Shown here: positions 4,002 through 20,189 of the stretch, piece after piece
Position numbering within the stretch: position 1 is the stretch's first letter
Layout: each line of letters begins with the position of its first letter
Virus record (IMG/VR): IMGVR_UViG_3300017738_000738
Span: 1 to 20,189 of that record
Direction: 5' to 3' (one strand)
Length of the DNA stretch: 20,189 bases
DNA from: a virus
The notes under the pieces: model-generated
The model's database searches: none
Told to the model about the DNA's origin: nothing
What the model saw: only the letters and a program-made list of their open reading frames with translations
Made by a program: the position numbers and the translations under genes

Positions 4002-5594
4002 TTAGCCTCCCATTCCTCTGTATAGACCTAGACCACTTAGTCCTGCACCTACTGCAGTTTGAAATAATCCTGGTTGTTGTTGATATGTGCTTCTCATAGC
4101 TGTTGGTGTTACTGGCACACCTCTTAATAGACCACCAAAGTCACTAAGTTGTTGTTTAGCATAGTTTTGTTGTCGTAAGAAATCTTCATAACCCATATCT
4201 AAACTTGCTTGTTGTAAAGCACGCTGTTGTGAGCCGATACCTTGAAGTGCTTGTATTCTAGAAAGTGCATCTGCTTGTTGTGCACTTCCTAATCCTTGTA
4301 AGCCTTCTGCAGCAGCTAAGTTATAACGACTAGATAAATCAAATCCGCTTTGTCTAAACTTCTCTTGAGCTTGTCTAGCTGCCTCATTTTGTTGTGACGC
4401 TGTTAAACCAAGCCTAGCTGCTTGTTGTCTTGCAGCTTCACCTGCTTGATAAGCTTGTATTCCTTGTGCACCCTGCTGTTGCAATGCTGATTGCTGTGCT
4501 CTAAAAGCATCTAATCCTTGTGCACCTTGTTGTTGTAAGGCTTGCTGTTGCATTTGGAATCCAGACTGACTAAATTTTTCTTGAGCTTGTTTAGCTGCTT
4601 CTTCTTGTTGCTGTGCATTTAATCCTAACTCAGCAGCTCTTTGTCTTGCTGATTCACCAGCACCATATGCTGCTTGAGCAAACGATTCTTTTTGTTGTCT
4701 TGATTGTTCAGCTTGTTGAAATGCTGCTTGTGATAACTGTTCTTGTGTTTGTCTTGCACCTTCACCAGCAGTAAATCTTTGTAATCCAAGTTGTGCTGCA
4801 CCTAATCCGCCAGCTCTTTCTCTTTCAAGTTGTTGTTGTGCAGATTCAAATGCTGCTTGACTACCTCTAGCTTGTATATCACCTAGTTGTTGACCAAGAT
4901 TACGCTCTCTTTCTGATTGCATAATAGCTTCACGATAACCGCCTAATCCACCTGATTGAGTAGCTGCATCTTGTATGCTTTTACCTGATATTTCAGATTG
5001 TCTTCTAGCTTCACGCTTTTCTATATCAGTAACATTTTGTTGATATGGAGACATAAACCTTTGTAAGTTTTCTTCATAGCCTAGAGGTGTATAGGCATCA
5101 CCCATAGAACCTGCTTGATATGTAGACTGTCTTATAGTTGGGTCATAGCCTGATGTAATATCTCTTGCTTGATATCCTGGACTAAACTGTCCTGCTTGAT
5201 ATTGTGGAGAAAACTCACCAGCTTGATATGTTGGTCCTACTTGACCAGCTTGATAAGTAGCACCCATTTCTCGTGGTTGATAGCCTGCTTGTGCTTGACC
5301 AGCAGTATATTCTCCGCCAATAGTACCTTGCATATTAAGTCTACTTTGTGCATCTGTATAAGCTTGTGGAGTTCCAGAGGTAGCAAAACCTCTAGTCATT
5401 GCCTGTGATGTTAATTCATCAGGAGAAAAATAAGCTAGTCTTTGACCTCCATATGGGTCATAGCCTTGAAGACTTTCTGCTTCACCTCTTTGTAGCAGTC
5501 GCTTAAAATACGGCTCTACATAATCTGGTAAATCAGTATTAGTTACAGTTGTTTCTGTTGGTGCGGAACTACCGCCTCCTTTATAATATCTCAT
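4002..5594 (-). CDS. Gln/Ala-rich repeat protein, probable virion component
   Basis: 530 aa, starting at an ATGA overlap with the upstream GNAT-like gene. Residues 1-70 (MRYYKGGGSS, DLPDYVEPYFKRLL, YGGQRLAYFSPDE) form a conserved-looking head typical of marine phage structural clusters. Residues 95-163 hold degenerate 8-10 residue repeats built around YQAG. Residues 180-480 are long amphipathic helices very rich in Gln and Ala, with a duplicated module (GESARQRAAELGL at 313 and GEAARQQAARLGL at 385). The C-terminus (FQTAVGAGLSGLGLYRGMGG) is a short Gly-rich hydrophobic tail. An extended coiled-coil virion protein, perhaps an ejection protein or scaffold-like component, fits. The function is not established from sequence. 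Confidence 0.75.
   Translation of the reverse strand: MRYYKGGGSSAPTETTVTNTDLPDYVEPYFKRLLQRGEAESLQGYDPYGGQRLAYFSPDELTSQAMTRGFATSGTPQAYTDAQSRLNMQGTIGGEYTAGQAQAGYQPREMGATYQAGQVGPTYQAGEFSPQYQAGQFSPGYQARDITSGYDPTIRQSTYQAGSMGDAYTPLGYEENLQRFMSPYQQNVTDIEKREARRQSEISGKSIQDAATQSGGLGGYREAIMQSERERNLGQQLGDIQARGSQAAFESAQQQLERERAGGLGAAQLGLQRFTAGEGARQTQEQLSQAAFQQAEQSRQQKESFAQAAYGAGESARQRAAELGLNAQQQEEAAKQAQEKFSQSGFQMQQQALQQQGAQGLDAFRAQQSALQQQGAQGIQAYQAGEAARQQAARLGLTASQQNEAARQAQEKFRQSGFDLSSRYNLAAAEGLQGLGSAQQADALSRIQALQGIGSQQRALQQASLDMGYEDFLRQQNYAKQQLSDFGGLLRGVPVTPTAMRSTYQQQPGLFQTAVGAGLSGLGLYRGMGG
4341..4658 (-). repeat. Duplicated 72-residue helical module in the 530-aa protein
   Basis: Residues 313-346 and 385-418 of the 530-aa protein align without gaps (GESARQRAAELGL against GEAARQQAARLGL; AQEKFSQSGF against AQEKFRQSGF), offset by 72 residues (216 bases). 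Between them the heptamer QQQGAQG occurs twice (354-360 and 372-378), an 18-residue sub-repeat. The pattern indicates growth of the helical rod by internal duplication. Confidence 0.8.
5106..5312 (-). repeat. YQAG degenerate tandem repeat inside the 530-aa protein
   Basis: Residues 95-163 of the 530-aa protein repeat an 8-10 residue unit: YTAGQAQAG, YQPREMGAT, YQAGQVGPT, YQAGEFSPQ, YQAGQFSPG, YQARDITSG, then a final YQAGSMGDA. At DNA level it is visible on the plus strand as recurring cttgatat units roughly every 27-30 bases. The units have diverged in codons, so this is an old protein-level repeat and not a recent slippage tract. Confidence 0.8.
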
Positions 5595-6070
5595 TCTTCT
5601 GCATCCTTAAAATTATATTCATAAAAAGTAGCTGGCTTCTTCCAGCCTTTTCTATTCTTTACCCAATTCCATTGTCCATGTCTACCCATGCCTTCAATGC
5701 CATCACATTCTGTTTCTTTAGCAAACTTAATAATTACATCTAATCCTATTTCTACCCAGTTTTGCATGTTATTTCCAGAAGTATGCTCAAGGTTTAACAT
5801 TTTCTTTCCTGTGGGATAAGTATTAAACATAGTTATTAAGACACCAGAAATTTCTAAACTACCTTTGTCAAAGATAATCCATAAATTACATCTGTTATTT
5901 AAACAGTCATAAAAAATGTCTTGTACTCTTATTCTATTTCCAGAACGATTTGCAGATTTTTTTAAATACTTTTCACAATCATCCCATACTAAAGATAATT
6001 TATCAGAAGTTACCAACGATAAACTATACTCTCCTGTTTTAGTTTCTGGTTTTACTGCTGTTTCATTCAT
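5591..6070 (-). CDS. GNAT-fold gp13-like protein of the structural cluster
   Basis: 159 aa, with ATGA overlaps at both ends. The order of motifs matches small acyltransferase-like (GNAT fold) phage proteins related to T7 gp13: an N-terminal helix (LVWDDCEKYLKKS), a strand with a tryptophan (CNLWIIFDKGSLEISGVL), a mid-protein ISGVLITMFNTYP segment, then W-x-x-x-x-L helices and the late AKETECDGIEGMGRHGQWNW segment, equivalent to the usual 'GC..ie..GR.GW' signature. Acetyl-CoA binding and enzymatic activity cannot be confirmed; many phage members have an unknown or structural role. Its place between the LysM protein and the repeat protein supports an internal-virion or assembly role. Confidence 0.65.
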   Translation of the reverse strand: MNETAVKPETKTGEYSLSLVTSDKLSLVWDDCEKYLKKSANRSGNRIRVQDIFYDCLNNRCNLWIIFDKGSLEISGVLITMFNTYPTGKKMLNLEHTSGNNMQNWVEIGLDVIIKFAKETECDGIEGMGRHGQWNWVKNRKGWKKPATFYEYNFKDAEE

Positions 6071-9000
6071 GCTGGTAGTAGCCCTCCTGCATTAGCTAAC
6101 CTAGGTGCTTGCTTTGTAGTTCCTGTTTTTTCTTTACGAACTCTATCCATCATGTCATAAAGTTCTTTAGAACCAGCATCTGAACTGCCATCTCCTAACA
6201 TTGATACTACATCAGCAGGAACAATAAACTCATCTTGTGATACGGCTATTCTTTCTTTATTGCCAATACGACCAAATAAGTCATCATCCATTCCGCCATT
6301 ACCATCGCCTTGTATCTGTCCTTCTGTTTGTGCATTAGGAACTAGACTTTGTAGTATTTGTTCTCTTAATTGCATAAATGCTTCATTACCATATTTTTGT
6401 ATAAAGGCATTAAGAGCTTCATTATTATCAGATTCTCCTAAAATAAATGCAGTTACTTCAGTAATAAGTGGGTCTACTTCTGTTTCACCACCTGCTTGTT
6501 TGAAGCCCATTTCATTTCTTACTGATTCAGGCAGATTAGGCAATCCTTTATTGTCTGCTGGTATATCTTTAAGTGTGTCACCACCTTCTGCTCTACCTCT
6601 TGCCATTGCTCTAGGAGAAGGTCTTCCTGCTATTCTTGTTTGTGGTAATGGTAAATTAACAGATGGAGCAGGTATCATTCCTAAGTCAACAGGCATTTGT
6701 GGCATTACAGGACTTGTTATTGCTGGAATACTAACTGGAGTAGTTGGCAATTCAAGTTGAGGCAATACTGGTTGTGGCATAAATCCACCCTGTATTAATT
6801 CATCTCTACCTGTAATATTTACTGGTGGAGGTGTAATCCCTACACTATCTCGAAAGTCTCTATCATCAACTATCATTCCTGCATCAGGCATTGGTTGCTG
6901 CATTATTGGTTGCGGTGCTATAGGCATTGGTTGAGGTGCATCCAAAACAGGCATAGGTTCTTGCATTGCTGGAGGTGCTATAGATACTGGAGGTGTAAAT
7001 GGAACACCTATTTCATTTGGCATAGGTGGTATTCCTGTATCTATTGGTGCAACAGGCATACCTATAGATTCAATTCTATCATCTGGCAATCTATCTATAG
7101 ACATAAAATCTTCACGCCTTGGTGGCATAATTGGTTTTTGCAATATTTCTCTTTCAGGTATTGCAGATATGTCTAAAGCAGGACCTCCACCTAAAACTGG
7201 TGGTGGTGTATCTTTAATAAATGGTTCATTAATTTCTCCTGGTGCAGGCATATTAATCATTCCAAAATCAGGTTCTGCAATAGGTGAAATCATTTCATCT
7301 GGTCTTTGTATAGAAAAATTTCTACCATCAGGAATTTCGTCTAATAATCCACCACCAGGAACATCTAAAGGAGGTTTAATCATAAAGTCTTGACCTATTC
7401 CTGTATCTATTTGTTCTTTAAGATTTGGATTAAACTGTGAAAAGTCTATTCCACTAAAATCTAAATCAGCTAATCCACTTAAATTTATATTACCTAAACC
7501 TCCAAATCCTCCGCCTATTCCACCTATTCCTGGAATATTAATTGGAAAATCAAATGGAGGGTCATATGGTGGAACTATTGGTGGTGTGATTGGTGGTCCA
7601 TCTGGAGGTGTGATTGGTGGTGTAATTGTTGGTGGTGGTGGTGCAACATCAGTAAATTTCATACCTTCTGGTGCTGGTCCTGTGTATGCTGCAAATGGGT
7701 CAATAGATACTTGTGGTGCAATAGATGCTTGCATGCCTCCAAAGCCTCCTTTAGAGCCTTCATAAGTATCAACACCTGCTGGTGGTCCACCTCTAGTTAA
7801 GTTACTAGCAGGAGCACTTACAGTAGATGGATTAAAATACATTGTTTCTGGTGCAAAACCAGCCATAAAGTCTGGATTTACTTGATAAGCTTGTCTATCA
7901 GGTGCAAATATTTGTGGAAGATTTCCGCCTGTATAATCATCATCTTCAGACCTACCGCCTCCTCTAAAATTTGTTACTCCGCCATTTGCAGAATAAAGAA
8001 TTGGTTCTGGTGCATTTCTATACATTTCTGCTCTATCTGCATCATATTGTGCTTGCCTTTCCGCTTCTTGACGAGCAAATTCTTCTTGAGATTGAATTAT
8101 AGATGTACCACCCATACCTATTCCCATTGGAATATAAGCACTAGGTTGAGTTAATCCTTGCATTAAATTACCCATTCCTGAGCCAAATTGTGTGCTAGCT
8201 CCGCCAACAGGAGCACCAGTAAAGGCATTAGCAGCTAACATTTCTCCACCAAAACTTGCTGGAGCGAGTGCTGATTCTACTAATGGATTAACTACATTAG
8301 AACTTACTGTTGGGTTTCCAAATGCAGTTGATAAATTTTGAATACCTGAAGATTGTGCTGCTGTTGCTGCTGCTTCTGCACCTGCTTGTTGAGTAGCTCT
8401 GGCAATTGCATTAGCACCAGCTTCAGTACCCATCCTGCCTGCTTCTGTAACTCCTTTAGTTGCTATATCACTACCAACTCCTGCACCTGCTGCACCTGCA
8501 GCACCTTGTAATGCAGAACCTATTCCATAACCAGTTAAACCAGCTAACATACCTTGTTTGAGGTCTCCTGTTACTGCTGTTTGTGCTAGTCCTGAGCCTA
8601 AAGCACCCATAGCAAGAGAACTTAACCCACCTAATCCAAGTGCACTTGCTGCTGCTCCACCAGCTAAACTACTACCAATCAAAGAACCTGCTATAGGTGC
8701 TATAAAAGGTAGAAAAGCTTCAGGTTGTCCTGTTTGTGGATTTACAGTTATAGGCATTGCTTGTGCCAAGCCTTTAACTTCTGCAGGATTTACATGCAGT
8801 AGCATAGAATCGCCATAGCGACCTTGTGCTGCTACATTTTTAGTTTGTTCTTGAATGTTCATACTTCCACCTTTATTAAAATTATATCTTGTTTGTCCAC
8901 CTATAGCCGAAAGATTTATATTACTTCTTCCACCTTGTCCTGTTCCTTCTTGAGGTCCAAAATAACCCATAAAATTTCTTAGTTGTGCATATGGATTAAA

Positions 9001-10218: not shown

Positions 10219-12083
10219 TATCTTTTACCATCTGGTCTAATATCTAATCTAATATCACCTAATCGCCATCCATAATCACTAGCTTCGCTTGATATTCTAA
10301 CTGCTGCTTGTCTGCTTCTTGCTCTTGTATTTGCAAATGTTGATTGAGGAGTAACATTAATTGTTTGCAAAGTAGACAAGTCTTGTAATGGATAATCTCT
10401 ACCTTTTATAGTAAATGTAACTGTGTCTGAAGTAGTTTGTTGGTCTCTAAACTCTACATCAGGTATTAATCTAGATATAAATGTAAATTTTTCTCCATCT
10501 GGATTTAAGTCAAAGTCACTTGATTCTATAAAAGCTGTAAAATTATCTGCTCCATCGCCATGACCAACTTCATGTCTGTAAATGTAATTAGTATTAGTGC
10601 TATCATTTTTACTGCTAGCTAAAGGATTTTCATATACAGATGCTTCATCCCAGGCTGTTCTTACAAAATTATCAGTAGTTGTACCTATAGACCATGTGCC
10701 TTCTAAATAGTTATATAAAACATATTTGTCTATTTCTTTATTTGTGCCAGAAGGATAGAAAAACATTATTTCGTTTACTCCTTCATTAGCTGCTGCAAAT
10801 ACTTTAAATGCCTGGTCTTGGTTTAAATCAGATAAAACATAATCTAATACTGTACATGGTAATCTTTGCGTAGAACCTGAATAAACATGAAAGCCATCTC
10901 TATCCATAAAATATACTCTATTGTTTGCACTAACTGCTGCATTAGGAGATATTAAACTTGGACCTTCAGCTACTTCTGTAAATGAAAATATAAATGGTTC
11001 TCCAACAAAACGCATAGAAACAATACCTGCATCAGTCCATATAAGTATTTCTTGTCTTGTTCTAAGTGCTCCAATAATTATAGAGCCTGTTGATAGTTGA
11101 ACACCGCCAGCTTGGTTTGTTGCTGTTGGAGTCCAGTCTACTGCACTTTCTGTATCTGAAAATCTAACTAATAAAGGGTCAAGTTCAGAAGAACCTATTG
11201 GATTACAACCAAAAGCTATAACATGCTTGTCAACATCAGACATCATTATTTGCAATACTTTTGTAGGCACATCGCTAGCACCTGATTCTGCAGATAATAA
11301 AGTTGCTCTATCGCCAGTACCAGATGATTTATCCCAAAAATATATTTGGTCTGCTCTTGGTGCTGCAATTATATCGTCACCAAAATTATCTATTGACCAT
11401 AATCTTAATTGATTAGTAGATGTTAAATCACCTGCTGAACCAAATGTTCCAGCACCCCATGTATTTACACCCCAACCAGTACCTCTTACATAGACATCTA
11501 GTCCTGTATTTATTTGATATGCACCATCAACACCAGAACCACCATTACCTGAATCAGAACTATTTGCTGTTACTTCATCACCAGATGTATCTTTTGCAAT
11601 AATAGTATAAGTATCTTCGCTTGTTACTGTTTCTATTTGATATTCTTGATTTAATACATCAGCAGTAATTAAACCGCCTAAAGTAACTGCACCTGAAATT
11701 GTAACAAAATCTCCTGTAAGTGCTCCATGAGCATCGTCTGTTACAGTTAATGTGCTTGAACCATTAGTAGCAGAAAAGACAATACCATTCGTAGTAGTAG
11801 CCCTTATAGGAGTTATATCGTAAAAAACATTACCAGTTAAATTATATAATTTTTGATGTGTTCCTAAACCAATATAAGTATCACCACTTGCTGCTCTATA
11901 TGGATGTATCTTTCTTGCCGTGCCAATAAAACCATTCTCACTAAATTTAGTCCAGCCTCCTATTCTTTCAGGCTTTCCTTTTCTAAATCTAACTTTATCT
12001 GCATCAAACCAGCCACCTTCATTACTATAATTAGTACCTTCTTTATTTATGCCAGGTTTAAATACATACTTCATTAATGGCAT
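10218..12083 (-). CDS. Tail/stabilisation-type virion protein
   Basis: 621 aa, beginning MPLMKYVFKPGINKEGTNYS and continuing with an EGGWFDADKVRFRKGKPERI segment. This 'FKPGIN.e.T.Ys.EGGW.d.dkvRFR.G.PEkIGGW' opening marks a large family of podovirus-type tail proteins in environmental phages, probably equivalent to tail-tube or DNA-stabilisation (P22 gp10-like) proteins. The rest is beta-rich with repeated Trp/Gly strands and a Thr/Ser/Gly-rich insertion around residues 105-190. A GAGG-type ribosome site lies about 7 bases before the ATG. It starts 3 bases after the lysozyme stop, the boundary between lysis and structural genes. The virion role is well supported by family resemblance; its exact place in the tail is inferred. 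Confidence 0.75.
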   Translation of the reverse strand: MPLMKYVFKPGINKEGTNYSNEGGWFDADKVRFRKGKPERIGGWTKFSENGFIGTARKIHPYRAASGDTYIGLGTHQKLYNLTGNVFYDITPIRATTTNGIVFSATNGSSTLTVTDDAHGALTGDFVTISGAVTLGGLITADVLNQEYQIETVTSEDTYTIIAKDTSGDEVTANSSDSGNGGSGVDGAYQINTGLDVYVRGTGWGVNTWGAGTFGSAGDLTSTNQLRLWSIDNFGDDIIAAPRADQIYFWDKSSGTGDRATLLSAESGASDVPTKVLQIMMSDVDKHVIAFGCNPIGSSELDPLLVRFSDTESAVDWTPTATNQAGGVQLSTGSIIIGALRTRQEILIWTDAGIVSMRFVGEPFIFSFTEVAEGPSLISPNAAVSANNRVYFMDRDGFHVYSGSTQRLPCTVLDYVLSDLNQDQAFKVFAAANEGVNEIMFFYPSGTNKEIDKYVLYNYLEGTWSIGTTTDNFVRTAWDEASVYENPLASSKNDSTNTNYIYRHEVGHGDGADNFTAFIESSDFDLNPDGEKFTFISRLIPDVEFRDQQTTSDTVTFTIKGRDYPLQDLSTLQTINVTPQSTFANTRARSRQAAVRISSEASDYGWRLGDIRLDIRPDGKR

Positions 12084-12086
12084 TGG

Positions 12087-12560
12087 CTACACCTCATACC
12101 ATTCTTTGCCTTCAAACAATAAAGCTTCTGCTTCTCTGCGTCTTATTAAACCTTGTAAAACTTTTCCTCCAGCTTTATTCCAGCGTTTTATTTGACTAGG
12201 AGTAGTGTGATAATCACCAGCATTTAAAAGTTTTAATAAAGTTGAAGATTTTAAATTAGAAGGACCGAGATTAAATACCCATGCTACTAAAGCATCAAAT
12301 TGATTTTGATTTAATTCTACTTTTACCATGTCATTAATATAACCTTCATACTCATTCATTTCATGTAAGAGTAAATCTTCTGCTTCTTGCATAGTAATTT
12401 TCATACCATCTTCTACTGGCTTACCTTTATATTTTAGGCTGCCATATCCAATTGTTGCTTTATTTGCTGCACATCTATAAGAAACTGCATTACCATCATT
12501 GTCTGTAGGACAACCTTCAAATTTTTTAATAAGAGATAAACCTTCTTGTGATATATTCAT
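12087..12560 (-). CDS. Endolysin, T4-type lysozyme (GH24)
   Basis: 157 aa when started at ATG 12560 (MNISQEGLSLIKKFEG). This start is preferred because a GAGGA ribosome site sits 6-7 bases upstream and the longer frame would add 21 residues that overlap the upstream gene. Catalytic features of GH24 are visible: Glu15 in KKFEG, Cys30 in SYRC and Thr36 in the ATIGYG motif (the E-D/C-T triad, with Cys in place of Asp as in some P1-like lysozymes), plus the C-terminal GLIRRREAEALLF signature. There is no signal peptide, so release through a holin is expected. It hydrolyses peptidoglycan at the end of infection. The spanin genes lie directly upstream, giving a standard lysis order. Confidence 0.92.
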   Translation of the reverse strand: MNISQEGLSLIKKFEGCPTDNDGNAVSYRCAANKATIGYGSLKYKGKPVEDGMKITMQEAEDLLLHEMNEYEGYINDMVKVELNQNQFDALVAWVFNLGPSNLKSSTLLKLLNAGDYHTTPSQIKRWNKAGGKVLQGLIRRREAEALLFEGKEWYEV

Positions 12561-12564
12561 ATTT

Positions 12565-12945
12565 TTATTCCTCGTTATTTGTAGTAACTGTCCTATAATA
12601 GACAACAACTTCTTTAAGTTCATTCATATACCTTTTAAGCTCTTGCATATTGTAAGCCATTACCTCGTAATCAGGTATTGTCATAGCTAAAAAAACTAAT
12701 TCACCTTCTTGTTTTTCTATTCTAGCAAGTTGTTCTTCCCAATTGTCAGGAGTAACAACAATCCACATAGGTTCTTTTAGGTCAATTTCTCTAGGCATAA
12801 CTGGTTGCACTATAGTTCTGTCTAGTGGTTTTGCTGTAACTTGTATTTCTTTAGTTGGAATTAGGCTGCAACTGCAAACCATCATCAAGGTTATCAACAA
12901 CATTGCTGATTTTCTCGATGTCTTCCATAATGTGTTTTGTTCCAT
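12565..12945 (-). CDS. o-spanin-like outer-membrane lipoprotein
   Basis: 126 aa. The N-terminus (WKTSRKSAMLLITLMMVCSC) is a basic region, a hydrophobic core and a lipobox ending at Cys26 (V-C-S-C). The mature part begins with Pro-containing extended sequence (PTKEIQVTAKPLD, QPVMPREIDLKEP), as in o-spanins, and then a WIVVTPDNWEEQL segment followed by a helix (MQELKRYMNELKEVVVYYR). The gene starts inside the 3' end of the i-spanin gene in another frame (95-base overlap), the Rz/Rz1 arrangement. It is longer than classical Rz1, because a distinct C-terminal domain seen in marine phage lipoproteins of this kind follows the Pro-rich part. It would pair with the i-spanin to fuse inner and outer membranes after lysozyme action. 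The spanin role is inferred from architecture. Confidence 0.75.
   Translation of the reverse strand: MEQNTLWKTSRKSAMLLITLMMVCSCSLIPTKEIQVTAKPLDRTIVQPVMPREIDLKEPMWIVVTPDNWEEQLARIEKQEGELVFLAMTIPDYEVMAYNMQELKRYMNELKEVVVYYRTVTTNNEE
12567..12573 (-). promoter_or_regulatory. Ribosome binding site deciding the lysozyme start
   Basis: GAGGAAT on the minus strand ends 6 bases before ATG 12560 and is formed by the last codons and stop of the o-spanin gene. No comparable site precedes the longer in-frame ATG at 12623, so the shorter lysozyme is preferred. Confidence 0.7.
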
Positions 12946-13246
12946 TATTTATTTTTCTCTCCATTTCTACTGGGTCTGCCAGTATTTTTGCAGATAATTC
13001 ATAGTCTTTTATAAACTGAGTATATCTATTAAGTTCTCTTTGAGCTGCTTGACTTTTAACTGTAAGTTCATTTAGTTGAGTTGTTTGTAAAAGAAAGTCA
13101 TTTTGTAAATTTTGTATAGCTTCTTCTTGTGTAGCTATAGCACCTTCTAAAGCAAGGTTATTAGATTTAAGTGTAGTGTTTTCTTGATATAACCAATAAC
13201 AACCTAAACTTAAAACTAAAATTATGCCTATAAATATTTGTTGCAT
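12851..13246 (-). CDS. i-spanin-like protein (TM plus coiled coil)
   Basis: 131 aa. An N-terminal transmembrane segment (residues about 3-20, IFIGIILVLSLGCYWLY) is followed by a long periplasmic helix with heptad character (residues 21-100, Asn/Gln/Glu/Leu-rich). This is the Rz topology. A GAGGA ribosome site lies 7 bases before the ATG, which overlaps the upstream stop as TAATG. The last 95 bases also encode the signal peptide of the o-spanin. Position immediately before the o-spanin and lysozyme supports the assignment. Sequence similarity to classical Rz is not evident, which is normal for this fast-evolving function. Confidence 0.75.
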   Translation of the reverse strand: MQQIFIGIILVLSLGCYWLYQENTTLKSNNLALEGAIATQEEAIQNLQNDFLLQTTQLNELTVKSQAAQRELNRYTQFIKDYELSAKILADPVEMERKINNGTKHIMEDIEKISNVVDNLDDGLQLQPNSN

Positions 13247-13485
13247 TAAACATCCTCTATAATGTAATTAAGACCTGCAGAACTTCTATACTCTATAAGT
13301 TTATTATTTTCATCTCTAAATTTAAGATGTTTTTCTTTTTGTATTAATATCTTTTTAGTAATATAAGTTTTATCATCTGCATCACCATATTCTTTATTAA
13401 AAGATACTGTAACTTTATAGCGTGTCTTAAATTTCTCTAAAATCCATTTCCAAATTAATTTAATTTTATTGAGTATTTTGTTCAT
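13246..13485 (-). CDS. Small basic protein conserved in marine phages, unknown function
   Basis: 79 aa. An N-terminal basic amphipathic stretch (KILNKIKLIWKWILEKFKTR) precedes a beta-rich part (YKVTVSFNKEYGDADDKTY, ITKKILIQKEKHLKFRDENN) and ends SSAGLNYIIEDV. The layout 'Lys/Trp helix, then a strand pair, K..I..K.IK..D..g..iE..., then Y.I..' resembles short marine phage proteins I have seen without assigned function. It overlaps the cyclase gene by 20 bases and the i-spanin gene by one base, and lacks a clear ribosome site, so it is probably translated by coupling. Confidence 0.6.
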   Translation of the reverse strand: MNKILNKIKLIWKWILEKFKTRYKVTVSFNKEYGDADDKTYITKKILIQKEKHLKFRDENNKLIEYRSSAGLNYIIEDV

Positions 13486-15244
13486 AAGTAAATATTTTTA
13501 ATGGTTTAGATTTACCTTTTACCTCAATAGGTTCTAGTTCTTTTAAATGATAACCACATAAACTTTCAGTAGATTCTCCAATTAATAAATCTACATCTCT
13601 TTCTTTTGTAGAACTTTCTAATCTAGCTGCTGTATTAACAGCATCCCCAATAGCAGTATAATCAAATCTAGATTCTGAACCCATATTTCCAATTACTGCA
13701 TCTCCTGTATTTATACCTATACCAATAGCTATAGGTGGCAATCCTTCTTCTTGTAACTCTATATTAAGAATAGACATATTTTCTATAATATCAAAAGCAC
13801 ACTCGACTGCTATTTTAGGATGATTTATTAAATCTATAGGTGCATTAAATATAGCCATCATTGCATCGCCAATATATTTATCAACCATACCACCATGTTT
13901 TTGTACTGCGGATTGTTGTGCAGTTAAAGCTTTATTCATTATATAAGTTACTTTTTCTGGTTCGAGAGTTTCTGACATAGCGGTGAATCCCCTAACATCA
14001 GTAAATAAGAAGGTAGCATACTTTTTTTCTCCTCCTAACTTTAATAAGTCAGGGTTATTTTGTAATTGTTTAACCTGTCTTGGGTCAAGATAATGTTCAA
14101 ATTGTTTTTTAATTTGTTGTCTTAACTTGTATTGTTCTCTAAATCTTAAATAAAAAGCTATAGAAGCTGTTATAAATTGAGATATTAAAGTCCAACTTAC
14201 ATCTATAAGAATACCTTTTTGTATAAGATAATGTCCACTAAATGCCGTTATAAAAAATAATATACTGGTAAATAGTATTCCTGTCGTTATTCCTAAAATA
14301 TTTATTAACAACCACGCCAAAGCTACTGTTGTAATAAAGATTAATATTTCTGCAGCCAATGCCCAATCAGGAATATAAGGACTATCTTGTATTAATATAG
14401 ATTCTGCTAATGCAGCTTGTATTTTATGAGGTTCTAATAAACCAACTGGAGTAGCTATTTGTGGCATAACACCATTTGCAGTAACTCCAACTATTACAAA
14501 CTTACCATTTACATCCATTTCTTGTAAATCTGTTTGTGGTGTATCTATCCAACTAATCCATTTACGACCAAAACTATCTGTTTTTATTGGTGGTATTCCT
14601 CTTATTGATATTTCTTCTATACCATTATCATTAGTTTTTATAATGTAAGTTTTTACATTAAATAAAGATTTGTATATTTGCGTACCAAAAGCAGGAATCC
14701 AATTATTATCAGGTGTTTTTACTAAAAGAGGTATTCTTCTTACAAGTTGGTCAACTTCGGTGGGAGCAATGGCTAGACCCTGTAATGTATTATTTGTAAG
14801 AGTGTTCAGGTTTTCCTTAACTCCCAAAGATACTATACCACCATTATCTTCACCTTTCACTACTGTACCTGTAGGTTTAGGATATTTTCCTTTACCATCT
14901 TCAAACATAGCTATAACAGATGGTGCATACCCTAAAGACCTTGCAAAGTCTTCATCACCTCCCATTCTATCTGGTTGTGGAAAAGATATAACCCAGCCAA
15001 CACCAACAGCACCTTTACCTAAAATTTCCATTTGTATTTCAGCTAATCTTTGTCTAGGTAGTGGATATCCACCTTCACGCTCTACATCTTCTTCAGTTAT
15101 ATTGAGTATGACAAAGTTTCCTGATTCTTCTGGTGTTTCTATAAAAGTATCAAATATTTTTAATTTAAGTATTTCTGTTGGGGTAGACTGAAATACTAAA
15201 GGTAAACTTAGTATTATAAGTATTATGAATATTAACTTCTTCAT
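13466..15244 (-). CDS. CHASE2-domain membrane class III adenylate cyclase
   Basis: 592 aa. Residues 1-20 are a membrane anchor. Residues about 25-285 are a periplasmic CHASE2 sensor domain (FVILNITEEDVEREGGYPLP, then VGWVISFPQPDRMGGDEDFA). Three transmembrane helices follow at about 293-315, 318-338 and 343-363, then a linker helix. Residues about 405-585 form the cyclase domain. All key positions are present: metal Asp416 (FTDVRGF) and Asp460 (KYIGDAMMAIF), adenine-site Lys456 and Thr530, and transition-state Asn537 and Arg541 (AIGDAVNTAARLES). The Lys/Thr pair points to class IIIb and to ATP as substrate. It makes cAMP in response to an unknown periplasmic signal. The one-base TAATG junction with the FecR gene matches a pairing often seen in bacterial genomes. 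Such a full-length receptor cyclase is unusual in a phage. Confidence 0.93.
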   Translation of the reverse strand: MKKLIFIILIILSLPLVFQSTPTEILKLKIFDTFIETPEESGNFVILNITEEDVEREGGYPLPRQRLAEIQMEILGKGAVGVGWVISFPQPDRMGGDEDFARSLGYAPSVIAMFEDGKGKYPKPTGTVVKGEDNGGIVSLGVKENLNTLTNNTLQGLAIAPTEVDQLVRRIPLLVKTPDNNWIPAFGTQIYKSLFNVKTYIIKTNDNGIEEISIRGIPPIKTDSFGRKWISWIDTPQTDLQEMDVNGKFVIVGVTANGVMPQIATPVGLLEPHKIQAALAESILIQDSPYIPDWALAAEILIFITTVALAWLLINILGITTGILFTSILFFITAFSGHYLIQKGILIDVSWTLISQFITASIAFYLRFREQYKLRQQIKKQFEHYLDPRQVKQLQNNPDLLKLGGEKKYATFLFTDVRGFTAMSETLEPEKVTYIMNKALTAQQSAVQKHGGMVDKYIGDAMMAIFNAPIDLINHPKIAVECAFDIIENMSILNIELQEEGLPPIAIGIGINTGDAVIGNMGSESRFDYTAIGDAVNTAARLESSTKERDVDLLIGESTESLCGYHLKELEPIEVKGKSKPLKIFTYEQNTQ

Positions 15245-16362
15245 TAATCACTCTGAGTTATAGTTATAATTGAATCGCTACCGCCATTCACCTTGACCAC
15301 ATTAGATATACCATCTTGTATAAATATAACTGTATAAGAGTTATTTCCATCTAAATCTACTCGTACTGACTCATTTACACTTCTACGCAAACTTATAACA
15401 TCACCTGCTATTAAAGTTGTTATTTGTGTGTCTGGGTCTTTACCTAATAGTGTTCCTGTTATTTGCGTACTAGTTGCTTGTGCTAGTTGGTCTTCTTCTT
15501 CAGCTACAGCTAACGCATCTAAAACATTAAGTAAATCTTCCAGGTAATTGACATCTAAATAATTTATATCTAATTCAGTAAACTCTAAACTATCATCTGT
15601 TAAAAAATCTTCGGCAAGATAATCTATATCTAAATCATTAAAATCTAATACACTATCAACTTTAGTAGAAGTTGTTTCTTCTTCAAGTATTTGTTCTTCT
15701 TTAGGCGGTGTGACAATTAGCATGTTATCTATAATATCTAAAGTTAAATCTAATATTACAGGTTTGCTAGGTGCTGATTCAAATACACTTACTGTAGTAG
15801 CTTCATAAGGTTTATTAAGTAAAACAGTACCCATAGCAGTAACCACCTCTATTTCGCCACTAGAAAGCCCTAGAGCGTCTGGTAGAAGTATTATAAGGCT
15901 ACGACCTAGTTCATCTACTGTAGCTGTAAAATCAGTACCACGAATAGCTATATTTGCTGTAGGAGTTTTAAGTGTAATATTTTGTTTATCAATTTTATTA
16001 AAACTGCCAGTAATAAATCTAGCTGTGCCTAAACCAAAAGTAAGAGCCATTTTTGCTTTAGATGGGTCTGGGTCATAAATATACTCATCTATAAGCAATT
16101 GTGAATGTTCAGTTAGTTTTACTGTTGAATCATCTAAAAAAGTAATAGCCATTCTGCCATTAGTAGTGATAGCTTCATCATTACTTTGAATTGCAAATTT
16201 TAATTCGGCATTTAATGGTTTATCTCTTACTATCTGTGCTGAACCATTTAGTTCAGATATATCCCCAATATCAGCAGCTTGTGCTTGTACCTTGGTCGTT
16301 TTGAATGACGCAGACAGTAGAAGCAGCATTACCGCCAATTGATATAATTTTAAGCCAGTCAT
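15244..16362 (-). CDS. FecR-domain periplasmic protein
   Basis: 372 aa. Residues 1-29 look like a Sec signal peptide (LYQLAVMLLLLSASF, cleavage near VQAQA). Residues about 58-150 match the FecR domain: DEAITTNGRMAITFLDDSTV, SQLLIDEYIYDP, GTARFITGSF and the hallmark TPTANIAIRGTDF. Residues 240-278 are an acidic repeat (LDIDYL, LDINYL, LDVNYL). The last 35 residues (YTVIFIQDGISNVVKVNGG, then SIITITQSD) look like a curlin-type repeat. No lipobox and no C-terminal membrane anchor are seen. FecR domains act as periplasmic sensors or scaffolds. Adjacency to the CHASE2 cyclase suggests it delivers or modulates the signal. The first 92 bases overlap the curlin-like gene. Confidence 0.85.
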   Translation of the reverse strand: MTGLKLYQLAVMLLLLSASFKTTKVQAQAADIGDISELNGSAQIVRDKPLNAELKFAIQSNDEAITTNGRMAITFLDDSTVKLTEHSQLLIDEYIYDPDPSKAKMALTFGLGTARFITGSFNKIDKQNITLKTPTANIAIRGTDFTATVDELGRSLIILLPDALGLSSGEIEVVTAMGTVLLNKPYEATTVSVFESAPSKPVILDLTLDIIDNMLIVTPPKEEQILEEETTSTKVDSVLDFNDLDIDYLAEDFLTDDSLEFTELDINYLDVNYLEDLLNVLDALAVAEEEDQLAQATSTQITGTLLGKDPDTQITTLIAGDVISLRRSVNESVRVDLDGNNSYTVIFIQDGISNVVKVNGGSDSIITITQSD

Positions 16363-17002
16363 TATCTTGGGTACTCAGTTGTTGTATGTTAAAAGTTCTT
16401 TGACCGCCTGTATGGTCTAGCCAAAAATATCCACCTGCTGAAGCATTAACACCAGTACCTGTATAAGTTACTGTATTATCAGAACCATCTATGTCCATAT
16501 AGTTTGTTGCTCCATCAATATTTATATTTGATGTTACTGTATTGCTAGAACCTTGAATAATCCAATCTAAATTTAAGTTTGCTGCTATTGCTGTAGTACC
16601 TTGATTTAAAGTAAATGTATTACTATTACCTGTAACTGCTATATTTTGGTCAGAACCAGCAGAACTATATGTATTCGTTGGGTCTACTTGTATCGTAAAA
16701 GTATTAGTATCTCCAGTAAAATTATATAATCCTGTAAAAGTAGTAGCGTTTATATCACCTAAAAATTTATTGGTATTACCAATCATATTAATATCAAGTG
16801 TCATAGTAGCACCATCTAAATCAAAGGCAGTTAAAGACCCTGCAGTAGAATTTAAACCACCAATGATATTAGAAATACCTAATTGTTCTAAATCTATATT
16901 TGCACCAGTACCTGACTGGTCTACATAAATTTCGTTATCAGCCGCGTATATTGTCGATGCACTCAGCATCACAATCAGGCTCATCAATTTTAATTTCTTC
17001 AT
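16271..17002 (-). CDS. Curlin-like secreted repeat protein (candidate CsgG substrate)
   Basis: 243 aa from ATG 17002, chosen because it gives a clean Sec signal peptide (MKKLKLMSLIVMLSASTIYA, cleaved before ADNE) and has an AGGAG site 11 bases upstream. The frame also has an ATG at 17032. The mature start (IYVDQSGTGANIDLEQLGIS) is curlin-like, with alternating hydrophobic residues and Q-x-G-x-x-N spacing. A G-x-x-N-T-[FV] motif then recurs: GNTNKF 75, GDTNTF 97, GNSNTF 125, GSSNTV 151, GSDNTV 173, GGQRTF 199, every 22-28 residues, consistent with stacked beta strands. It ends with a Cys pair (VCVIQNDQGTSTSC; Cys231 and Cys243). The full E. coli curlin repeat is not kept, so amyloid formation is inferred. 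It overlaps csgG by 65 bases. Confidence 0.75.
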   Translation of the reverse strand: MKKLKLMSLIVMLSASTIYAADNEIYVDQSGTGANIDLEQLGISNIIGGLNSTAGSLTAFDLDGATMTLDINMIGNTNKFLGDINATTFTGLYNFTGDTNTFTIQVDPTNTYSSAGSDQNIAVTGNSNTFTLNQGTTAIAANLNLDWIIQGSSNTVTSNINIDGATNYMDIDGSDNTVTYTGTGVNASAGGYFWLDHTGGQRTFNIQQLSTQDNDWLKIISIGGNAASTVCVIQNDQGTSTSC

Positions 17003-17810
17003 GTTTCCAAAAACTCCTGTCGTAACCGACATTTATTATTTCTAACACAGCACTTTCTATAGCTTTCATAAGTGCTAATGTTGTTGACTCGTTCCTTGAA
17101 TTACCCAATTCAATCTCAACAAGCTCCGTGCCCATTTCAATAAAACGAAATACATCTTCTGATTTACCATAACTAAATATAGTTTTTTCAGTCATTACTT
17201 CAATCAATATTTCACCTGTGGCTACTGATACCATGCGTAAGGTAACTGTGACGCTATCTTCTCTATATTGAATACTAGAACCAATACCTAAGTATCTAGC
17301 TCCTGTACCTCCTGTAGCAAGATTGCTTTCATAGGCAATAACAGCACCTTCGATTAAAACTCCTGCAAATAATAATGGTTGTAATTGTTTTTTCTTTTCT
17401 TCATCACTAGCAAATTGTTCTCTAGCTGACCTTATTAATTGTCTTTCTTTTGTTAAATTATCTAACCCAACTCTTTCAACAACTGTAAAAAATTCTCCAT
17501 TAGACGCATGTTTTAATGCTCTTATAAGTAAAGAACTTGGTTGTTGTGTAACTGCTGTACTAAATAAAGCAAATTCGCTATTGCTTTTTCTTTGTCCAGT
17601 TTGGTCTGTAAATGATGATGGATATACAGCAACTACAGGTTTTATAATAGGTTGTATTACATTAGCTAGTTCTTGAGATTGTAGTTCAGATATTTCAACA
17701 ATATCATGTGCCTTAAATCTTTGTTCGTATGTATCTTCAAACTGGTTGAATATAGAACAACTAGAAAGTAAAAGTACCGATAGGTATCGTAATTTCAGTA
17801 ACTGTTCCAT
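16938..17810 (-). CDS. csgG: CsgG curli secretion channel lipoprotein
   Basis: 290 aa, close to the E. coli CsgG length (about 277). A lipoprotein signal (LRYLSVLLLSSC) places the acylated Cys at residue 18. Family segments are clear by eye against E. coli CsgG: VAVYPSSFTDQTGQRK, FSTAVTQQPSSLLIRALK, FTVVERVGLDNLTKERQLIR, the near-identical AYESNLATGGTGARYLGIG (159-177), VATGEILIEVMTEKTIFSY, DVFRFIEMG and YDRSFWK. CsgG forms a nine-subunit outer-membrane pore exporting unfolded curlin. In the constriction loop only Phe83 (E. coli Phe56) is kept; the Tyr51 and Asn55 equivalents appear to be Ser and Leu. The gene overlaps csgF by 50 bases, nearly exactly its signal peptide length, and carries an acidic Cys-containing tail (DEPDCDAECIDN) that may be lineage-specific. 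Confidence 0.93.
   Translation of the reverse strand: MEQLLKLRYLSVLLLSSCSIFNQFEDTYEQRFKAHDIVEISELQSQELANVIQPIIKPVVAVYPSSFTDQTGQRKSNSEFALFSTAVTQQPSSLLIRALKHASNGEFFTVVERVGLDNLTKERQLIRSAREQFASDEEKKKQLQPLLFAGVLIEGAVIAYESNLATGGTGARYLGIGSSIQYREDSVTVTLRMVSVATGEILIEVMTEKTIFSYGKSEDVFRFIEMGTELVEIELGNSRNESTTLALMKAIESAVLEIINVGYDRSFWKHEEIKIDEPDCDAECIDNIRG
17014..17018 (-). promoter_or_regulatory. Ribosome binding site for the curlin-like gene
   Basis: AGGAG on the minus strand, 11 bases before ATG 17002 and inside the csgG coding region. It supports the internal start that gives a standard signal peptide. Confidence 0.5.
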
Positions 17811-18294
17811 CTGCTTCCGTTATTTTAAGGGTTAATGTTACACCATCACTAGTATATTCTATGGTGTTGCCTTCTAAAGTTATTGTGCCTGAACTTTGAG
17901 GCGTTTCCCCAAATAAATTATTTACTAACTGTCTTGATAGTTCTGCATATACTCTTGATTCTAAATTTCTCATAAATCTTGCAAGAGTAGAATTTTCTTT
18001 TTCTCTTTCTATTTCTTCTTGCAAAGCTTTAATTTCTTCTTTTATTGTAAGCTTACGACTAAATTCTTGATTTTCTATTGTTAAATAATGACTTGATGTA
18101 GCTTGTCCGTTAAAACTAGGTGATTTAAACTTGTGTACTATTTGGTCTGCTTTGATATTTTGAACAAAAATACCAACAAATAAAATTATACCTATAACCG
18201 CTATAATTTTAATTAATAAATTTTTTTCAGTTTGTTCTTGTAAAGCTTTTATATCAGCTTCATTTAGACTCCATTTTTTCTTTTTTACTGTCAT
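17761..18294 (-). CDS. csgF: CsgF-like curli assembly partner of CsgG
   Basis: 177 aa. A 26-residue cytoplasmic N-terminal extension (MTVKKKKWSL...) precedes a hydrophobic segment (LLIKIIAVIGIILFVGIFV, about 27-45) ending in IKA|D, which could be a cleavable signal or an anchor. The part after it matches CsgF: HKFKSPSFNGQA corresponds to the E. coli QFRNPNFGGN pore-binding region, then a helical section (RFMRNLESRVYAELSRQLVN, like the CsgF IQSQILGGLLSN helix) and a beta-rich end (DGVTLTLKITEADGTVTEIT). CsgF plugs the CsgG channel mouth and guides curlin nucleation at the surface. A Glu/Lys-rich insertion (about 80-100) is longer than usual. No alternative Met start exists nearby. The gene overlaps the upstream membrane protein gene by 35 bases and csgG by 50. 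Confidence 0.85.
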   Translation of the reverse strand: MTVKKKKWSLNEADIKALQEQTEKNLLIKIIAVIGIILFVGIFVQNIKADQIVHKFKSPSFNGQATSSHYLTIENQEFSRKLTIKEEIKALQEEIEREKENSTLARFMRNLESRVYAELSRQLVNNLFGETPQSSGTITLEGNTIEYTSDGVTLTLKITEADGTVTEITIPIGTFTF

Positions 18295-18532
18295 TTGTTA
18301 ATTCCTGCTCTTTGAGCTGTAATACTGTATTGACTTTTTGCTGCAACCTAATCATATCTTGGTCAAGTAATCTTAATTGGTCAGTTAATCTAATTATAGT
18401 TTTTTGCATTTCACTAATTGCAGGTTCAACAGTTTTAGTTACTGTAGACCAAACATAATAAACAAAGTAACCTAAACCTACGACCATAACAGTAGCAAAT
18501 CCAAATTTTTCTATAAGAGCTACTATATCCAT
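18260..18532 (-). CDS. Small membrane/coiled-coil protein, holin-like (paralogue 2)
   Basis: 90 aa. One N-terminal transmembrane segment (about 11-30, GFATVMVVGLGYFVYYVWST) is followed by a charged coiled coil (about 38-75) and a Lys/Glu-rich tail. It aligns without gaps over 73 residues with the neighbouring 97-aa protein (IEK-x-G at 7-11, GYF at 21-23, D-x-[MI]-IR at 58-62). The shape resembles BhlA/UviB-type holin-related proteins. It begins at the one-base junction with its paralogue and overlaps csgF by 35 bases. A role in lysis or in membrane organisation is inferred only from topology and position. Confidence 0.65.
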   Translation of the reverse strand: MDIVALIEKFGFATVMVVGLGYFVYYVWSTVTKTVEPAISEMQKTIIRLTDQLRLLDQDMIRLQQKVNTVLQLKEQELTNDSKKEKMESK

Positions 18533-18825
18533 TAGTCTCGTCTTGCGTCTATTTTGCCGTCTTCTACAAAGTTTTCTGCCCTGGCTATTCTATCTAAATC
18601 AGGAGCTATGTTTAAAGCACTAGATACGCTTGTATCAATACGAATAATATCGTTATTCATTGTTGATGCTCTAGTTATAAGCATTTTGGTAATACCTTCT
18701 ACTGTTTTAATTTTATTAACTAAACCAGTCATCATCTGTTTCATTATAAGAAATATAAAATATCCCATAATTAAACCACTAGCTATAGGCAATCCAACCT
18801 TTTCTATAAGGTCAAAGGCTTCCAT
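18532..18825 (-). CDS. Small membrane/coiled-coil protein, holin-like (paralogue 1)
   Basis: 97 aa. The N-terminal membrane segment (VGLPIASGLIMGYFIFLIM, about 10-28) precedes a helical region with evenly spaced hydrophobic residues (TKMLITRASTMNNDIIRIDT) and a charged tail (DLDRIARAENFVEDGK). It is the tandem paralogue of the 90-aa protein downstream, aligned without gaps across 73 residues though strongly diverged. It begins 3 bases after the holin candidate and lacks an obvious ribosome site, so translation is probably coupled. The pair may form a hetero-oligomer. Confidence 0.65.
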   Translation of the reverse strand: MEAFDLIEKVGLPIASGLIMGYFIFLIMKQMMTGLVNKIKTVEGITKMLITRASTMNNDIIRIDTSVSSALNIAPDLDRIARAENFVEDGKIDARRD

Positions 18826-18828
18826 AGA

Positions 18829-19200
18829 TTATTTGCTATTGATTTTATCTTTGGCTGTTCCTGCGTATAAACCAAACCAAGCTGCACCTGCACCTACTAC
18901 TATTGAAATTAAACCTGATTGTTCAAATGATGGTTCAGGTAAATTCATAAACCATATAGTACATTTATATAAAAGAACTATATAAACTGTTAAAAACATT
19001 CTTGGAAATATTCTCCAGGCATCTATCATGTTAGAAAACCATATCCAGTTTTGCCATGGATTATCAGGCTCTTTTTCATTTTCCATTTCCATAATTTTTT
19101 GTTTTAGTTCACCAATTTCTTGAACCATAGCCATAAATTTATTTAGGTCAATTTCAACCTCATTACGACTCATATCTCCGCTAAATCTTTCTTCACTCAT
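18829..19200 (-). CDS. Holin candidate, two transmembrane segments
   Basis: 123 aa. A charged N-terminal helix (about 12-45) leads to an NPWQNWIWFSNMIDAWRIFP segment and two membrane spans (MFLTVYIVLLYKCTIWFM, about 68-85; GLISIVVGAGAAWFGLYAG, about 96-114) with a short basic tail. The small size, the two spans, the 'GAGAAWFGLYAGT' end (a pattern I associate with holin-like proteins of marine phages) and its place in a lysis region support a holin. An AGGAG ribosome site sits at 19207-19211, 6 bases before the ATG, the clearest site in this part of the window. Confidence 0.7.
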   Translation of the reverse strand: MSEERFSGDMSRNEVEIDLNKFMAMVQEIGELKQKIMEMENEKEPDNPWQNWIWFSNMIDAWRIFPRMFLTVYIVLLYKCTIWFMNLPEPSFEQSGLISIVVGAGAAWFGLYAGTAKDKINSK

Positions 19201-19203
19201 AAT

Positions 19204-19626
19204 TTACTCCTGGGGTGTGAATTTTCCTAATTCTATTAATTTTTGTCTGTTTATTAAATGTTCTGCTTCTACATCATCTTTAGATTGACCAAAGTAAGCT
19301 ACAGCTAAATAATTTTTTACCATAGTTTCATTAATATTTAATCCATCAACAATAACATTGCCTAAAACTCTGCCGTATTTACCTCTAGAATCTTTTAGTT
19401 TAGTTTGTATAACTACTTGAGTGCCATTATCTACAGCATCTTTTAGGAAAGCCCCAGCCATTTTTCCTCTAACTTTCTCATCTTTGTTACGAGTGCGTGA
19501 TTCGGGAGTATCAATACCATATAAACGAACACGAGACTTAAACATAATGTCAAAACCAAGGTCCAAAACAACATCAATAGTATCACCATCAACCACTCTA
19601 TCAACTGTGCAACTGTATTCATACAT
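19204..19626 (-). CDS. Thermonuclease (SNase family)
   Basis: 140 aa, about the size of the mature staphylococcal nuclease core. The OB-fold motifs are intact: VVDGDTIDV (Asp15), SRVRLYGIDTPESRT with Arg34, Asp39, Thr40 and Glu42, and RGKYGRVLGNV with Arg86. These match the catalytic Arg35/Glu43/Arg87 and calcium-ligand positions of the family. There is no signal peptide, so it should act in the host cytoplasm, cutting DNA or RNA, for example to recycle host nucleotides. It starts at a TAATG junction after the small basic protein. SNase genes occur in several marine phages. Confidence 0.92.
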   Translation of the reverse strand: MYEYSCTVDRVVDGDTIDVVLDLGFDIMFKSRVRLYGIDTPESRTRNKDEKVRGKMAGAFLKDAVDNGTQVVIQTKLKDSRGKYGRVLGNVIVDGLNINETMVKNYLAVAYFGQSKDDVEAEHLINRQKLIELGKFTPQE

Positions 19627-19868
19627 TATCTTTTTTTTCCTTTATGCAAGCCATGTCTTGCATGTTGTTTACCTTTTCTTGTTGCTTCACGTTTTTTCTT
19701 ATTAGCTCTAGCAAGTTTACTTCTACCTTTAGATGTAGATTTTAATTTTTGTATTTGTGCTTTAGGTGCATAGACTTCACCTGTTTCAGAAGATTTTTTA
19801 CCACTAGGAGTAGTCCATTTTTGTTTAGTCCAACGCTTTAAAGACCTTTGTGACTTTTTTAATGGCAT
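19626..19868 (-). CDS. Small very basic protein, DUF5872-like
   Basis: 80 aa with about a third Lys/Arg. The order KKSQRSLKRWTKQKWTTPSG, then GEVYAPKAQIQKLKS, then KKKREATRKGKQHARHG matches a family of short basic proteins in marine phages and bacteria that I recall as DUF5872 (family number from memory). No enzymatic motif is visible; nucleic-acid binding is likely from charge. Both ends use TAATG overlaps. Its place before the thermonuclease gene may be incidental. Confidence 0.65.
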   Translation of the reverse strand: MPLKKSQRSLKRWTKQKWTTPSGKKSSETGEVYAPKAQIQKLKSTSKGRSKLARANKKKREATRKGKQHARHGLHKGKKR

Positions 19869-20086
19869 TAATCCTCCTCTTGGAAACCTTCGCTATATAA
19901 ATTATTAAATGTAGTTAGTGGGTCAAGATAACTTTCGTGACCTTCTGCTGAATGTATATGTTGTGATGGAGCAAAGTCTGGTGGACCTTCTCCTGTAACC
20001 CATAAAGCAGGACTAGTAGCTCTAACTCTATTATTTGGTAAAGCAACTAGGTTGCCTTTCCATTCACAGTCTTCTGTAATGTACAT
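19868..20086 (-). CDS. Small unknown protein, minus-strand member of a head-to-head pair
   Basis: 72 aa from ATG 20086 (MYITEDCEWKGN, LPNNRVR, TSPALWVTGEGPPDFAPSQ, acidic end GFQEED). An in-frame ATG at 20113 would add nine residues, but that extension is read antisense through the homologous copy on the plus strand and is unlikely to be genuine. I do not recognise the family. The partial plus-strand copy shows the same protein with five changes in 37 residues and mostly synonymous DNA differences, evidence that the frame is under selection. The start lies in the palindrome ATGTACAT shared with the opposite gene. If this junction is an assembly chimera, the true upstream sequence is missing. 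Confidence 0.65.
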   Translation of the reverse strand: MYITEDCEWKGNLVALPNNRVRATSPALWVTGEGPPDFAPSQHIHSAEGHESYLDPLTTFNNLYSEGFQEED

Positions 20087-20189
20087 AACTGAAGATTGCA
20101 AATGGAAAGGCAATATAATTGCTTTACCAAATAATAGAGTAAGAGTTACAAATCCTGCTTTATGGGTTACAGGAGAAGGTCCACCAGAT
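19976..20189. repeat. 214-base imperfect inverted repeat centred on ATGTACAT
   Basis: Position p pairs with 40165 minus p; the centre lies between 20082 and 20083 with no spacer. Over 107 paired positions I count 13 mismatches and no gaps (about 88% identity), with an uninterrupted match of about 35 bases near the outer end. Eight mismatches fall at third codon positions and are synonymous. The repeat reaches the window edge and may continue. Confidence 0.92.
20079..20189 (+). CDS. Partial plus-strand homologue of the 72-aa unknown protein
   Basis: An open frame of 37 codons from ATG 20079 to the window edge (MYITEDCKWKGNIIALPNNR, then VTNPALWVTGEGPPD). It is the only plausible plus-strand gene in the window and is homologous to the minus-strand gene starting within the same palindrome. 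No ribosome site precedes it, because its upstream sequence is the coding strand complement of its partner. Either it is a real divergent duplicate or it belongs to a chimeric join. Confidence 0.5.
   Translation, partial: MYITEDCKWKGNIIALPNNRVRVTNPALWVTGEGPPD

Follow-up and report, generated by a model that had tools for sequence, protein, structure and literature searches.

We asked whether this marine phage contig ends in two small genes that start head to head within one palindrome, as a first-pass annotation had proposed, or in a join between two related phage strains. The window, by which we mean the whole stretch of DNA analysed, is an entire IMG/VR record: one linear contig, 20,189 bases long.

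An inverted repeat at the end of the contig

An inverted-repeat search of the window returned arms at 19977-20082 and 20083-20188, each of 106 nt, 89% complementary and with zero spacer, which is by far the longest such repeat (the runner-up is 38 nt at 71%). The repeat without intergenic space that had been described is present, and the 8-base palindrome placed at its centre, ATGTACAT, was located at 20079-20086, its sole occurrence in the window. A recount over 111 nt of the coding arms agreed with the earlier tally of 13 differences, 8 of which are synonymous third-position changes. The right arm runs to the very edge, as had been stated, and this edge coincides with the end of the record itself as well as of the window; the record stops 103 nt beyond the palindrome. 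Compared with two other IMG/VR contigs, L172 and L020, the end of the window reads as follows.

19868..20086, minus strand: 3′ part of the main phage's phrog_3704 gene, the last 72 codons and the stop (the L172 gene is 226 aa, with MYITED from codon 156)
20075..20086, plus strand: junction TGTAATGTACAT, the 9-12 bases common to the left parent's antisense strand and the right parent's sense strand, including ATGTACAT (from the parent comparison)
20087..20189, plus strand: putatively foreign piece, another strain's phrog_3704 gene from about codon 158, truncated by the contig end (103/103 identical to L020)

Two structures were tried and rejected. Simple fold-back of one molecule, which the first-pass annotation had also excluded, is at odds with arms that differ at 13 of 111 positions and with a right arm identical to the sequence of another strain, L020. 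A hairpin telomere or terminal hairpin genome end was set aside on the same 13 differences and on the position of the end inside a gene.

Elsewhere in the window, positions 13466-15244 (minus strand) encode a 592 aa protein that combines a CHASE2 sensor domain with the catalytic domain of adenylate/guanylate cyclases. It shares 32-33% identity with annotated cyclases of Pelagibacter phage HTVC008M and the Methylophilales phages Melnitz, and phage-borne cyclases of this kind are therefore already in the records; a literature search for CHASE2 cyclases of phages found no paper. Positions 18260-18825 (minus strand) hold two adjoining small genes of 90 and 97 aa, each matching phrog_18771, which form a tandem pair of related genes.

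The codon at the centre in related phages

The left copy was scanned against IMG/VR, which gave 599 relatives; 80 of these were fetched, and codon 1 of the window's copy could be aligned in 79 loci. Where the window has ATG, the aligned relatives carry ATA, TTA, CTT, CTG, TTG, ATG and similar, an internal Met, Leu or Ile codon preceded by a conserved in-frame stretch, ...IAD-PAQHKQSHV. The upstream frame is open in 79/79 loci, with an in-frame stop after 153-180 codons in 76 and the other 3 running off the contig, and the full gene is roughly 220-245 aa long. Neither copy has a start of its own at the centre, judging by all 79 aligned relatives and by the intact 226 aa gene of L172. These alignments indicate that each arm is a 3′ portion from within a single longer gene and that the two were truncated at the same codon. 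The first ~155 codons of the left gene fragment are absent because the contig changes strain at 20079-20086.

With an internal codon at the centre and an open frame upstream, the proposal of two genes starting head to head at the palindrome fails, and the genome turning point that had been placed there finds no support. Ribosome sites had been reported missing and are indeed absent on both sides, but the internal codon explains this, since no gene starts at the centre.

The complete gene of L020 (5527-6201, 224 aa) matches phrog_3704 over residues 1-210 (E = 2.9e-27), and its counterpart in L172 lies at 7263-7943. The gene is related to one of T4-like cyanophages and pelagiphages, with relatives in 107 phage records; the broken gene of the window belongs among them, although the window holds 3′ fragments only. 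A comparison of the gene with Pfam gave no match. Its cyanophage relatives are named either 'ferredoxin' or 'PurM / phosphoribosylaminoimidazole synthetase', names that are incompatible, and the two labels look like carried-over mistakes.

Two parents and the join between them

L172 (IMGVR_UViG_3300017786_000258) is 99.3% identical to window positions 10765-20098, a span of 9,334 bases that reaches the join, and this extent of identity indicates that it is the same phage as the main body of the window. Past the join, the window agrees with L172 at 31/103 positions, which is chance level, and the L172 gene continues as a normal 226 aa gene, with MYITED from codon 156 and small same-strand genes ahead of it. 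L172 has one copy of the gene and no inversion, and the two matches found in it are both window arms landing on the same gene. Over the final ~500 bases identity to L172 is lower, at 92-94%, and given this 6-8% divergence the exact left parent across the join probably differs from L172; an exact 41-mer of the left arm had no match in IMG/VR. The right arm is identical at 103/103 positions to L020 (IMGVR_UViG_3300025102_000826); in that contig it forms part of an intact 224 aa gene present in single copy, and an exact core 42-mer of this arm was found in 7 IMG/VR contigs.

Each arm thus matches its own parent without interruption across the join, the body L172 and the right arm L020. The letters common to both parents at the join are TGTAATGTACAT, a microhomology of up to 12 bases, or at least 9 if the codon of the left parent is not ATG; this codon is ATG in L172 and ATA in L003. 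A shared stretch of 9-12 bases is typical of template switching. Wherever two copies are joined in inverted orientation at TACAT, a conserved motif (Tyr-Ile), the product would be ATGTA followed by CAT, that is ATGTACAT, on both strands. The palindrome arises necessarily, because both gene copies carry TACAT and are joined head to head, and the comparison of the parents indicates that the 'shared palindromic start' came about through the joining of two copies at this motif. The first-pass annotation had advised looking for the same junction in independent assemblies, and a degenerate junction pattern had no match among 2.9 million IMG/VR contigs, a set that may omit records very close to that of the window.

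We considered that the phage might carry the gene twice, as diverged copies placed head to head by a real inverted duplication, as the divergence of the arms as coding sequence, in place of identical arms, would suggest. However, the same phage as represented by L172 carries the gene once and uninverted, the right arm is an exact match to another strain and not a diverged paralogue, and both copies would be without about 155 N-terminal codons. The gene also occurs exactly once in 21/21 larger relatives, so that the head-to-head arrangement is conserved neither there nor in L172, nor is its junction found in IMG/VR. L172 and the single-copy relatives lead us to reject a paralogue pair, and we give a real duplication next to no chance.

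Origin of the inverted join

We conclude that the contig end is very probably an artefactual inverted chimera of two phage strains, whatever step made it, with a probability of roughly 0.94. The chimera of two related strains that the first-pass annotation had preferred is borne out by a body matching L172 (99.3% over 9.3 kb) and a right arm matching L020, both with the gene intact and in single copy. The inverted repeat is almost certainly not a biological feature and contains no head-to-head genes, and bases 20087-20189, as part of this probable chimera, should not be attributed to the main phage.

Amplification or library preparation is the most likely step at which the join formed, ahead of the assembler and of any natural process. 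In the sequence of events that we propose, DNA synthesis on the main phage would run out of the 3′ part of the phrog_3704 gene in the direction of its first codon and halt at ...TGTAATGTACAT. The 3′ end of the new strand would pair with the opposite strand of the homologous gene from a related phage present in that sample, over the 9-12 bases that the two have in common. The paired end would then be extended on that phage's strand, and the assembler would follow the chimeric read or reads for ~100 bases and stop.

Inverted chimeras have been described for two such steps. Of the chimeras formed in MDA, 85% are inverted, and the joins usually involve 2-21 complementary bases (Lasken and Stockwell 2007, PMC1855051). 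The window resembles these products, a frequent artefact, in its inverted join with a complementary stretch in that range; most MDA inversions, however, arise inside a single molecule, and the arms of the window come from two strains. Fragmentation and end repair also yield inverted chimeric reads between similar molecules, and in the PDSM model similar molecules pair as single strands over a short inverted or palindromic sequence, after which the strands are filled in (PMC10908179). Such reads likewise join a strand to an inverted relative, although the DNA there was human and the partner here is another phage strain.

A pure assembler error with no chimeric molecule would be a sub-case of the artefact, separate from a chimera made in the library. 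Two strains of one gene in a metagenome could tangle the assembly graph, and the join does fall at a palindrome. Usual assembly k-mers, however, exceed the 9-12 shared bases, and at least one read containing the join was therefore probably needed. We consider such an error unlikely.

Natural illegitimate inverted recombination between co-infecting phages would instead make the join real DNA in the sample. Both parents belong to real marine phage lineages and share a short homology where they meet, and a search of 243 related loci turned up one other inverted repeat, carried by L042 (IMGVR_UViG_3300017767_000153), a second contig of mirror type. Its arms, at 5521-6673 and 7168-8326, are 84% alike, and both phrog_3704 copies are intact. 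Left matches of relatives end at ~6671-6673 and right matches begin at ~6663-6665, an overlap of roughly 9-11 bases, and the region near 6663-6673 is a second inverted inter-strain join, in another contig and at another place; a join of this kind also accords with the artefactual reading. Against recombination in the window, the junction was not found in other IMG/VR contigs, a gene conserved in both parents would be broken and a mirror genome would result, and the contig continues for just about 103 bases past the join, a length that one or a few chimeric reads would account for. Natural recombination is very improbable for the window, and it is just as doubtful that the inverted joins of the window and L042 together are products of recombination between co-infecting strains; if they were, mirror-type genomes would follow.

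For viral metagenomes, an artefactual chimera of two strains at this contig end carries a caution. Contig ends may carry ~100 bases of another strain in inverted orientation, and such ends can be mistaken for a divergent gene pair, a hairpin end or an inverted duplication.
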